From IMG/VR virus record IMGVR_UViG_3300010392_005399, positions 1 through 23,349 of that record: a stretch of 23,349 nucleotides of DNA. One strand, given 5' to 3'. This document shows, piece after piece, positions 5,698 through 10,968 of the stretch (position 1 is the first letter of the stretch; each line of letters begins with the position of its first letter). The notes under the pieces were generated by a model. The model made no database searches, was not told the DNA's origin, and saw only the letters and a list, made by a program, of their open reading frames with translations. The position numbers and the translations under genes are program-made. The stretch comes from a virus.

Positions 5698-5880
5698 TTA
5701 GGCGCTCGGACGGCTTTCCAGCCATTCCGCAATTGCGCTTTCAGGCCATGCGACGACTTTGCCTGTGAGTTTGACCGGGCGAGGAAATTCGCCACGATCC
5801 ATGAGATTGTAGATGGTTGAGCGCCCCAGGCCGGTGATCTCTTCGACCGCTGCGCGGCGTAGGTGCTTCTCAAGTGCCAT
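5698..5880 (-). CDS. AlpA-family transcriptional regulator
   Basis: A typical AlpA-family protein of 60 residues. The helix-turn-helix is unmistakable: LRRAAVEEITGLGRSTIYNL followed by MDRGEFPRPVKLTGKVVAWP and a closing helix ESAIAEWLESR. AlpA proteins bind DNA near prophage excision or activation genes. I prefer the ATG at 5880 to the one at 5889 because AAGGGGA stands nine bases before it but touches the other. It is the first gene of the leftward operon and lies directly under the repressor-controlled promoter, so it should be made early after induction. Role in activating late left genes or excision is inference. Confidence 0.85.
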   Translation of the reverse strand: MALEKHLRRAAVEEITGLGRSTIYNLMDRGEFPRPVKLTGKVVAWPESAIAEWLESRPSA

Positions 5881-5930
5881 GTTCTTCATTCCCCTTTATC
5901 CGCGCCGGGATGGCCTGCGGTATGGGGGTG

Positions 5931-5959
5931 AGTATGTGCTAATTAATTTAGCTGGTCAA
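5931..5959 (-). promoter_or_regulatory. Leftward early promoter (pL-like)
   Basis: Read leftward, TTGACC (5954-5959) and CATACT (5931-5936) are separated by exactly 17 bases, a good sigma-70 promoter. Transcription would start near 5924 and run into the AlpA gene at 5880 and the whole leftward operon. A repressor-type palindrome fills the spacer and a second one touches the -35, so binding there should shut it off. Confidence 0.7.
5938..5952. promoter_or_regulatory. Candidate repressor operator OL1
   Basis: A 15-base near-perfect palindrome, GCTAATT-A-ATTTAGC, with one mismatch. It sits precisely in the spacer of the leftward promoter. It is the same motif as the perfect palindrome at 6616-6630 in front of the Cro-like gene. 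The shared motif at both promoters, and nowhere else noticed in the window, marks it as the likely repressor/Cro target. Confidence 0.7.
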
Positions 5960-5973
5960 CTAAAAAATTTAGC
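5959..5973. promoter_or_regulatory. Candidate repressor operator OL2
   Basis: ACTAAAA-A-ATTTAGC, a weaker copy with one perfect half-site and two mismatches in the other. It begins 21 bases from the start of OL1, that is two helical turns, so dimers on both sites would lie on the same DNA face. A lone TTTTAGC half-site follows at 5980-5986. Confidence 0.6.
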
Positions 5974-6205
5974 AATCCGTTTTAGCGACGCTATGTTGCG
6001 TCACAACCGATTCCGGCTATATGCACGTGCGTTAGCAATATTTGGCGCAAGGCAAGGATAACCGACCGCACATCTTGCGGTTTCACGTTTTGGTCCTTGC
6101 GTGGTAATGATTAGATGCAGGCAAGGGTCGAGACACGGCAACGCACTCCCCGCCAATAAAAAGACGTGAATTATACTGTTAGTAATTACCGGGGAGGTTT
6201 GGCGG
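5974..6205. other. Intergenic region between leftward promoter and repressor gene end
   Basis: About 230 bases without a convincing gene. It holds a TTTTAGC operator half-site (5980-5986), a small hairpin (ACCGCA at 6065-6070 with TGCGGT at 6076-6081) followed by a loose T-rich stretch, a pair of inverted CCTTGC/GCAAGG arms (6095-6100, 6121-6126) and a TATACT (6172-6177) that could be a rightward -10. None of these is strong. A small regulatory RNA cannot be ruled out. Confidence 0.4.
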
Positions 6206-6415
6206 ATGGCTGATTTGCGGCTTGATTTGCTTATCGATGGTGCAAAGCGCACCGGATTTACCATAGATTATTTAGAGGCGCTAACGCGCGATCTGTCCAA
6301 CCAGGCATTGCGCAGGGTCATCGGCAGCGCATCGTCTATGCCTTCATACATGAAGTCCAGCGACAACCCGAACGTCTGGCGTAAGGCCAGCGCGCCGTTA
6401 AGAGACAGTCGGTGA
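6206..6415 (+). CDS. Possible small protein overlapping the repressor gene antisense
   Basis: A 69-codon frame (MADLRLDLLIDGAKRTGFTI, then DYLEALTRDLSNQALRRV) whose ATG is preceded by GGGGAGG eight bases away, one of the best ribosome sites in this part. A TATACT lies 29 bases upstream of the start as a possible -10, without a good -35. Only the first 62 bases are free; the rest is antisense to the 3' end of the repressor gene, so its coding look there may be fortuitous. If real it could link translation or antisense transcription to repressor level. Confidence 0.3.
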   Translation: MADLRLDLLIDGAKRTGFTIDYLEALTRDLSNQALRRVIGSASSMPSYMKSSDNPNVWRKASAPLRDSR

Positions 6416-6555
6416 CTGCCAGCTTCCCACAGTGAATATGCTGAGCGCTTCGTATTGATGCGTTCGGCGTAGTCGGCTTGGGAAAGGCCGATCAGTTCGC
6501 GGTGCCAGCGGAGCCTTTCGGCTATGTCGGCATAGGGTTTGTCTTCGTCAGCCAT
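6268..6555 (-). CDS. Phage repressor, XRE-family helix-turn-helix, 95 aa
   Basis: A Cro/CI-type DNA-binding domain fills most of the protein: RLRWHRELIGLSQADYAERI, then NTKRSAYSLWEAGSHRLSLN and ALALRQTFGLSLDFMYEG, the classic five-helix XRE fold. It lacks the S24/LexA-type C-terminal domain that RecA-stimulated self-cleavage needs, so induction probably works differently. The ATG at 6555 is chosen; an ATG at 6567 is the alternative. It is divergent from the Cro-like gene and flanked by palindromic operators on both sides, the standard immunity layout. Identification as the lysogeny repressor is a confident inference from position and fold. Confidence 0.85.
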   Translation of the reverse strand: MADEDKPYADIAERLRWHRELIGLSQADYAERINTKRSAYSLWEAGSHRLSLNGALALRQTFGLSLDFMYEGIDDALPMTLRNAWLDRSRVSASK

Positions 6556-6606
6556 GCTTCGGAACATGCCTGTTGAAGAAATTTGGCACAACGTCGATCT
6601 GTTGGC

Positions 6607-6635
6607 TTGACTATGGCTAAATAATTTAGCAGACT
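6607..6635 (+). promoter_or_regulatory. Candidate rightward early promoter (pR-like)
   Basis: TTGACT (6607-6612) and a weak CAGACT (6630-6635) are 17 bases apart, with the operator palindrome between them, the same geometry as at the leftward promoter (TTGACC-17-CATACT). The expected start point is about 6642, at or next to the ATG of the Cro-like gene at 6643. The mRNA would therefore be leaderless or nearly so. Confidence 0.5.
6616..6630. promoter_or_regulatory. Candidate repressor operator OR, perfect palindrome
   Basis: GCTAAAT-A-ATTTAGC is a perfect seven-plus-one-plus-seven palindrome in the divergent region between the repressor and the Cro-like gene. It lies inside the spacer of the likely rightward promoter and overlaps the likely -10 of the repressor promoter. 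It is the best copy of the motif also found twice at the leftward promoter. Confidence 0.75.
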
Positions 6636-6650
6636 GCGGGGCATGAACAA
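6623..6650 (-). promoter_or_regulatory. Candidate repressor promoter (pRM-like)
   Basis: Read leftward, TTGTTC (6645-6650) and TAAATT (6623-6628) are 16 bases apart. The -10 lies within the OR palindrome, so the repressor would limit its own synthesis. The call rests on hexamer match and position only. Confidence 0.4.
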
Positions 6651-8895: not shown

Positions 8896-10204
8896 CGGCA
8901 ACCTGTCGCGGGTGGCTAACATCATCGAACCGTCCGATTTCTACGAACCGACACACCAAGCGATTTACGAAGTCATCATCGGCAAAGTGGACCGCGATGA
9001 ACTGGCCACGCCTGTCACACTCAAGGCGACACTGTCAGCGCATGCTGGCCTGAACGAACTTGGCGCGGGGTATCTCGCGCGTTTGGCCGGGGCGGCGATT
9101 TCCACGAGCGCGGTTGCTGACTACGCCAAAATCATCGCGGACATGTCCCGTAAGCGCCAAGCGTTGGAATTTCTGCAGCAAGCTTCTGACGCACTGGTTC
9201 ATGGTGCAGAGGCAACCGGGGATATTATGGGGCGTCTAGAGGATGCCGTTGTGTCCCTGCGGCCCTCTGACAGCCGCCTTCGGCCCGTGTCGATGCTTTC
9301 GGCGGTCACAGGTGCGGTTGAGCACATCAACGCGGCATATCACGGCGAAAGCGTCCCGGCGATCATCAGCCCCTTCAATGCGCTCTACAACGTCATGCCC
9401 TATGCCCGCGCCGGAGATATGATGGTCTTGGGCGGTCGCCCCTCTATGGGTAAATCAGCTCTAGCCATCAGCTATGCAACTGCAGCGGCCCGCGCGGGGC
9501 ATCCTGTCGTCATGGCGTCCCGTGAAATGCTGGCAGAGGACGTGGCGATGCGCGTCATGTCTGAGGCCACCAGCGAAGCCGGAAACGCTGTAGCATATAC
9601 CAACATGTCATCCGGGGCGCTGGATCAACGGGCGTTTCGGCAGACCGTGGAATCCGCAAAATCGCTGCAGGATATGCCTTTCTACATATTGCCGCCAGAT
9701 TTTCGAACCGTGGGGTCGGTAACAGCGGGCGTAAAGCAAGCCATTCGCACGATGGGCATGGACAACGGTAAAATCCCGTTAATCGTGATCGACTACATCA
9801 GCCTTTTGGATGGAAACGGGCGCGACCTGCGGGAACAGATCACCGATGTATCCAAGAAGGTAAAGCACCTAGCCATGACCACGGGCGGCGTATGCTTAGC
9901 CCTGTCGCAGCTATCGCGGGCCGTAGAACAGCGGCAGGACAAGCGCCCCATGCTTTCCGACCTCCGGGAAACAGGCCAGATCGAACAAGACGCAGACGCC
10001 GTTTTGTTCTGTTACCGCGATGAATACTACATCGAACGCGAAAGACCGGAGGATGGTAAAGAGGCTGCGTTAGAGGACTGGCAGAATCGCCTGGAAAAGT
10101 CGCGCGGCAAGCTTGAACTGATAGTTGCCAAGCAGAGACGCGGGCCAATCGGCACGGCGCATCTGAACTTCGCCGCTGCGTTCAACCGGGTGTGGGAGTA
10201 CTGA
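8771..10204 (+). CDS. dnaB: Replicative DNA helicase DnaB
   Basis: A full-length (477 aa) DnaB-type hexameric helicase that unwinds DNA ahead of the fork. The N-terminal domain (HSIEAEQQLLGALLTNNGNL and the DFYEPTHQAIYEVI block) binds primase. The RecA-like domain shows Walker A GRPSMGKS at 222-229, Walker B LIVIDYISLL with D341, and the DnaB-specific SQLSRAVEQRQDKRPMLSDL followed by RETGQIEQDADAVLF. I start it at ATG 8771, preceded by AGGAAGG. The next gene is the initiator, so the phage brings its own helicase; no separate helicase loader was seen. Confidence 0.95.
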   Translation: MGDLSYINPNGQAPEQVALQEAKQPHSIEAEQQLLGALLTNNGNLSRVANIIEPSDFYEPTHQAIYEVIIGKVDRDELATPVTLKATLSAHAGLNELGAGYLARLAGAAISTSAVADYAKIIADMSRKRQALEFLQQASDALVHGAEATGDIMGRLEDAVVSLRPSDSRLRPVSMLSAVTGAVEHINAAYHGESVPAIISPFNALYNVMPYARAGDMMVLGGRPSMGKSALAISYATAAARAGHPVVMASREMLAEDVAMRVMSEATSEAGNAVAYTNMSSGALDQRAFRQTVESAKSLQDMPFYILPPDFRTVGSVTAGVKQAIRTMGMDNGKIPLIVIDYISLLDGNGRDLREQITDVSKKVKHLAMTTGGVCLALSQLSRAVEQRQDKRPMLSDLRETGQIEQDADAVLFCYRDEYYIERERPEDGKEAALEDWQNRLEKSRGKLELIVAKQRRGPIGTAHLNFAAAFNRVWEY

Positions 10205-10206
10205 CG

Positions 10207-10968
10207 ATGAGTGTTCACGTCATGTCGCATGTCTGGAAACACGGTCCTGCAGATCGGTCCGAACTTCTGATCCTCCTCGCGTTGGCCGATTTTTCGGACG
10301 ATGACGGGTACTGCTGGCCGTCGATGGAAGCGGTCGCCAAGAAGGCCAGAATGGGCGAACGCGGGGCGCAAAAGGTGGTCCGCAGATTGCAAGAAACCGG
10401 GTGGATTTCCGTCCAGACCGGAGGCGGTCGCCACGGGTGCAACAACTACCAAATCAACCTCAAAAAACCCGAACAAGAAACACCGAACCCCGTTCACCCC
10501 GAACCCCGTTCACCCCGAACGGGAGTGCAAAAACCCCGAACCAGAGTGCAAGAAACCCCGAACGGCGGTTCACCCGAACCGTCAGGAACCATCAAAGAAC
10601 CGTCAGAACGCGCGAAGGTGCGTGATGTTCTTTGTGAAGTTGCGGGTGATGAGGCGGTGGCCAGCTTCATGGCATATCGTAGCAAGCAGAAGGGCAAGGC
10701 GATGACCCTGACCGGAGCGAAGCGTCTGGCAAACCACCTTCAAAAGATCAAAGTTTCCGGCGGCGATGCTGATGACGCCTTAGCGCTGGCAGAGGAGCGC
10801 GGCTGGCAATCCGTCGAGCCGGGCTGGTACTTCCGAGAGACAGCCAAATCAGAGCGCCATATTTCGCAGCAATCCGGCAAGACCGTTCCGCGTGACGACT
10901 GGAAAACGGGGTCAACGATGGCACCAGCTGCCCCACCACCACCACCACGGCGAAACCTGCAGAATTGA
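10207..10968 (+). CDS. Phage replication initiator, lambda-O-like, winged-helix
   Basis: A 253-residue initiator. Residues about 1-85 are a winged helix of the HTH_36/replication-O type (MSHVWKHGPADRSELLILLA, then DDDGYCWPSMEAVAKKARMG and VVRRLQETGWISVQTGGGRH). A Pro/Arg-rich linker (about 90-135) follows, whose DNA carries iteron-like repeats. The C-terminal part (ALALAEERGWQSVEPGWYF) is the small helical module found in DnaA/DnaD-like and O-like proteins and probably contacts DnaB. Start ATG 10207 lies two bases after the dnaB stop. Like lambda O, it would bind the origin within its own gene. Confidence 0.75.
   Translation: MSVHVMSHVWKHGPADRSELLILLALADFSDDDGYCWPSMEAVAKKARMGERGAQKVVRRLQETGWISVQTGGGRHGCNNYQINLKKPEQETPNPVHPEPRSPRTGVQKPRTRVQETPNGGSPEPSGTIKEPSERAKVRDVLCEVAGDEAVASFMAYRSKQKGKAMTLTGAKRLANHLQKIKVSGGDADDALALAEERGWQSVEPGWYFRETAKSERHISQQSGKTVPRDDWKTGSTMAPAAPPPPPRRNLQN
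10483..10606 (+). repeat. Iteron-like direct repeats, candidate replication origin
   Basis: CCGAAC occurs six times (10483, 10499, 10515, 10536, 10558, 10574) at spacings of 16, 16, 21, 22 and 16 bases. The first two units, CCGAACCCCGTTCACC, are identical 16-mers. GAACCGTCAG then occurs twice (10576, 10597), 21 bases apart. All lie in the linker of the initiator gene, as lambda's O-binding iterons do. Regular spacing near one or two helix turns supports protein binding. A low-complexity Pro linker could produce weaker repeats by itself. No AT-rich unwinding element is obvious beside them. Confidence 0.6.

Follow-up and report, generated by a model that had tools for sequence, protein, structure and literature searches.

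The DNA analysed here, called the window below, is the whole of the viral record IMGVR_UViG_3300010392_005399 (23,349 bases, positions 1 to 23,349). A short repressor gene lies in it between promoters that carry the same palindrome. The locus raises the question whether these palindromes are the shared operators of a lambda-like switch and, since the repressor has no self-cleavage domain, what could induce such a switch.

An earlier note had placed three copies of GCTAAAT-N-ATTTAGC at the leftward and rightward promoters, and sequence matching confirmed the coordinates. The query GCTAAATNATTTAGC matched without mismatch at 6616-6630, with one mismatch at 5938-5952 and with two at 5959-5973. 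These were the sole matches with two or fewer mismatches in the entire record. When three mismatches were allowed, three matches were found in the whole window against 0.56 expected, and at least three were obtained in 2 of 100 shuffles. Judged from the window alone the count is mildly unusual; it is the relatives that make the case decisive. The features of the locus are listed in Table 1.

Table 1. Features of the immunity region (positions in the window) and the evidence for each
Feature	Position	Strand	Evidence
AlpA/excisionase-like HTH gene, first gene past PL	5698..5889	-	domain searches
PL, TTGACC-17-CATACT	5931..5959	-	read from sequence
OL proximal operator, in PL spacer	5938..5952		homologous site in PL spacer of relatives
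OL distal operator, 1-base overlap with PL -35	5959..5973		palindrome match and relatives
Convergent small ORF, 69 aa, candidate antirepressor	6206..6415	+	codon-position entropies; LexA boxes in relatives
XRE repressor, 95 aa, HTH_3, without peptidase domain	6268..6555	-	domain search; 434 repressor among PDB relatives
PRM, predicted repressor promoter, TTGTGC-17-CATGTT, 7 bases before ATG	6563..6591	-	sequence and alignment of relatives
OR2, degenerate operator, GCCAAATTTCTTCAA on - strand, in spacer of repressor promoter	6573..6587		full palindromes of relatives
OR-mid, half-site GCCAACA just upstream of PR -35	6600..6606	-	same offset in 30 loci
PR, TTGACT-17-CAGACT	6607..6635	+	read from sequence; 30-region alignment
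OR1, perfect palindrome GCTAAAT-A-ATTTAGC, in PR spacer	6616..6630		kept 74-78 bp upstream of repressor start in 30 relatives
Cro-like HTH protein, 79 aa	6643..6882	+	AlphaFold2 pLDDT 86; fold match; helix-operator covariation

PR consists of TTGACT (6607-6612), a 17-bp spacer and CAGACT (6630-6635), followed by 7 bases and the ATG at 6643; on the other strand PL consists of TTGACC (5959-5954), a spacer of the same length and CATACT (5936-5931). The palindromes were located between the -35 and -10 elements of both promoters as described before, except that the PR palindrome and the -10 element share one base, the last of the former and the first of the latter. The position of the outer copy near PL was likewise correct, but this copy overlaps the -35 element by one base instead of lying inside the spacer. 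The operator set assigned to the XRE repressor proved coherent and larger than the three copies of the earlier note: with the degenerate fourth site and the additional half-site it comprises at least four sites. Read as a 15-bp site, OR-mid would have its centre about 44 bases upstream of the repressor start. In the window one half-site of OR2 is intact and the other is degraded, while most relatives retain the full palindrome; autorepression may be relaxed in this phage. The two OL sites are 30-31 bp apart in relatives and 21 bp apart in the window, one helical turn less, and both spacings approximate whole helical turns.

Domain search found only an HTH domain in the repressor and no S24 self-cleavage/oligomerisation domain at its C-terminus; the relatives are of similar length. 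The structure of the Cro-like protein was predicted with confidence, and its best fold match in the PDB was a prophage Cro (3bd1), although the match was weak (E 0.3). Used as a search query, this protein found no relatives by itself, and its counterparts in other loci were gathered by position. By position, weak fold match and the covariation described below, it appears to be a Cro.

Relatives of the repressor were collected by scanning viral and genome contigs as well as whole genomes. Identities to the queries were mostly 56-76%, and the named relatives belonged nearly all to the Rhodobacteraceae (Paracoccus, Pseudooceanicola and Falsirhodobacter among them). In a sample of 395 genomes, all from one family, the repressor was present in 8. 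At E values of at most 1e-30, 35 distinct repressors were counted. According to the earlier note, the proposal would fail if immunity regions of relatives that share the repressor had no such motif; there it was found at a fixed place. For 30 of the 35 repressors, from Rhodobacterales prophages (L008 added by hand, the window included in both counts), a clear palindrome began 74-78 bp before the repressor start codon, within the spacer of the promoter of the divergent cro-like gene. No clear site was found at the expected place in the other five (L014, L045, L046, L047 and L050). Most relatives had a second site at about -32, in the repressor's own promoter and 42-44 bp from OR1, and most of the loci examined had the pair of sites beyond the repressor. 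The half-site between OR1 and OR2, at about -51, was conserved with a constant offset in 30 loci and tracked each locus's own operator class (79 of 90 matches versus 59 by permutation, p ~5e-5). The predicted right operator region is tripartite, as in lambda, with a weak middle site.

Two peculiarities were seen in a few of these loci. L004, L009 and L019 contain a further operator-like palindrome at about -303 from the repressor start, on the cro-like side. In L009, L015 and L031 the repressor and OL are separated by additional genes on the repressor strand (about 1.5 kb, coding for example for proteins of 267 and 243 aa), a position like that of rexAB cargo.

When 30 PR regions were aligned, TTG occupied the -35 place in all 30 and TTGAC in 19, with the operator within the spacer. 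The cro-like ATG usually followed about 18-19 bases past the operator centre, which makes the predicted PR transcription start coincide with the cro-like start codon. In the window transcription from PR would likely begin at or adjoining the ATG at 6643 and yield a leaderless cro-like mRNA. The repressor promoter of the relatives has the same geometry with OR2 filling the spacer, and the repressor mRNA is likely to be leaderless, too. With the predicted starts at the start codons of both genes, leaderless translation of both is likely.

The assignment of the operators to the short XRE repressor was supported by the covariation of the site bases with the recognition helix of the repressor and with the helix of the Cro-like protein. 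In the repressor the residues immediately preceding the conserved Trp varied with the operator: SLW occurred with GCT, SNW with GCC, NNW mostly with GAC and ANW (L043) with GTC. The residue preceding the Trp corresponded to operator base 3 (all 9 loci with Leu had T, all 18 with Asn had C), and the residue two before the Trp corresponded to base 2 (A:C 5:1 with Asn versus 1:21 with Ser). L049, which combines an NNW helix with a GCC operator, is an exception to this simple code. The Fisher values of these associations disregard relatedness, and for base 3 one supported independent pair was found (three on the whole tree); the statistical independence of the covariation is modest. When the helix was masked for tree building, L016 and L030 (SNW, GCC) were nested with good support in a mostly SLW/GCT clade, indicating that helix and operator changed jointly and independently there. 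In a pairwise alignment the two covarying positions fell on residues 32 and 33 of the 434 repressor, which was also, independently of this alignment, among the PDB profile matches. Residue 33 of the 434 repressor is a known base-contact position.

These observations suggest that the XRE repressor and the Cro-like protein very probably form a switch with shared operators, and an immunity region of a temperate phage is the best explanation of the region. For the binding and the directions of regulation we infer the following scheme. The repressor would bind the palindromes, presumably as a dimer. At OR1 it would turn off PR and the Cro-like gene, at the OL pair PL and the AlpA-like operon, and at OR2, inside its own promoter, it would cause autorepression at a higher level. 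The Cro-like protein would read the same sites and compete, tipping the switch to lytic growth.

Whether repression is the whole story is evenly balanced in our judgement. The circuit could be one of autorepression only, in which all promoters are repressed and PRM is not activated as it is in lambda. The location of OR2 in the PRM spacer of nearly all loci agrees with such a circuit. However, OR-mid would have its centre at about -44 relative to the predicted PRM start, near the activator position of OR2 in lambda, and activation may therefore occur.

It is very unlikely that the palindromes serve the Cro-like protein only and that the function of the short XRE protein lies elsewhere. The Cro-like helix does track the operator class as well, with His accompanying GCT and Arg accompanying GCC (11:4 versus 0:9), and the covariation includes GCCATA with RLARER; cro and repressor genes are linked, and the covariation that they share could reflect joint inheritance. 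Yet bases 2 and 3 of the operator change with the XRE recognition helix even where the rest of the protein is similar (L030, L016), and OR2 is inside the XRE gene's own promoter. Host-factor sites or chance AT-rich promoter spacers, for which the mildly unusual count in the window alone would leave room, were rejected on the covariation and are hardly conceivable given the fixed positions, the helix-dependent base changes and the multiple copies across 30 relatives.

The predicted shared-operator switch is lambda-like in its logic. As in lambda, 434 and P22, divergent repressor and Cro-like genes have operators between them, the same palindromes are common to PR, PRM and PL, the repressor is of the HTH_3 type and its mRNA is likely leaderless. 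What did not hold of the lambda-like label is membership in the lambda family, of which a self-cleaving repressor is one defining feature: the 95-aa protein ends without the S24 domain. Unlike in those phages, the operators are placed within the 17-bp spacers of the promoters, the right operator region has just a half-site in its middle and a convergent small gene overlaps the repressor gene. Because the repressor has no self-cleavage domain, induction would need another input.

Most novel in this locus is the small gene that converges on the repressor. The ORF was previously unannotated, and its end is antisense to the second half of the repressor gene. The same convergent ORF was found in 26 loci, its start usually behind a purine-rich ribosome site. 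In 25 aligned sequences the mean entropies at the three codon positions were 0.81, 0.52 and 1.62 (23 codons, nearly all outside the repressor gene). This bias towards the third position indicates that the ORF is translated over the codons examined, and as judged on its non-overlapping start the gene is real and protein-coding. Synonymous variation of the repressor gene was 0.69 in the part overlapped by the ORF versus 0.84 in the rest (p 0.24), so that the overlapping half of the small protein is putative. The small protein occurs in two states, IDFLEALTQ with an early repressor stop (TGA) and IDYLEALTS/R with a stop six codons later, the pattern to be expected of two genes that have to fit together. 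Neither Pfam nor PHROG had a family for it, and the fold search gave no usable match.

In 13 of the 26 loci the 170 bp upstream of the small gene contained an exact direct repeat, GAAC-N7-GAAC or GTTC-N7-GTTC. Shuffling gave an expectation of 0.1 (largest value 2 in 500 rounds) and the rest of the loci predicted 0.28, and repeats with other spacers from 3 to 13 had zero matches in the same upstream regions. GTTC-N7-GTTC is the LexA motif of alphaproteobacteria (PMC8565304; PMC3323433). Seven of the boxes adjoin the start codon and could have a common origin; the remaining six are in the opposite orientation at several different places, and at least a few of them probably arose separately. No box was found upstream of the window's own copy of the gene, which is therefore either under another control or no longer under that of the SOS response. 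A single exact GAAC-N7-GAAC occurs in the window (10586-10600), inside the ORF 10192-10968, which codes for an HTH_36/DnaD-like protein, and near-matches in the window were at chance level in total.

In members with a LexA box, the convergent gene would be an SOS-controlled antirepressor that leads to induction. The precedent is the Gifsy family (PMC3121763), in which the repressors cannot be cleaved; small antirepressors under LexA control, whose genes lie outside the immunity region, inactivate them. The present repressor, judged by its missing domain, resembles Gifsy GfoR and GftR in having no self-cleavage (186 Tum and N15 AntC belong to the same comparison; PMC3121763), and many of its relatives have a small gene with a LexA-type box whose product could inactivate it. 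In contrast to Gifsy, the candidate lies inside the immunity region, antisense over the repressor gene, and the copy in the window has no box; antirepression is a prediction from sequence here. In the TF-smORF prophage induction modules, too, a small protein is proposed to inactivate a master repressor, but these modules use dedicated transcription factors independently of DNA damage, whereas LexA is predicted here (PMC10432266). No report on this family of repressors and small genes was found in the literature searched.

There is nearly an even chance that the small gene is SOS-induced with another job, such as lysis or host take-over, or acts as antisense RNA only. A protein without known domain or fold match and the antisense overlap with the repressor gene are compatible with this. 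A role as antisense RNA only is disfavoured by the protein-level selection: over the first ~25 codons, most of which lie outside the repressor gene, the variation is at third codon positions. Against another job, the constant place of the gene in the immunity region and the non-cleavable repressor favour antirepression by analogy with Gifsy (PMC3121763). We infer that the convergent gene is the best candidate in the family for the induction input. The full proposal is that Rhodobacterales phages carry a LexA-controlled antirepressor gene inside the immunity region, antisense across the end of the very repressor gene whose product it defeats; we hold it tentatively, as somewhat less than an even bet. 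If it is true, SOS induction would both make the antirepressor and transcribe against the repressor gene.

For this group of phages the analysis provides a predictive repressor/operator code covering about 30 Rhodobacterales prophages, from which immunity groups could be read from the sequence. The unannotated coding gene with its LexA-type boxes is the likely link to induction by DNA damage where the repressor is without a self-cleavage domain.
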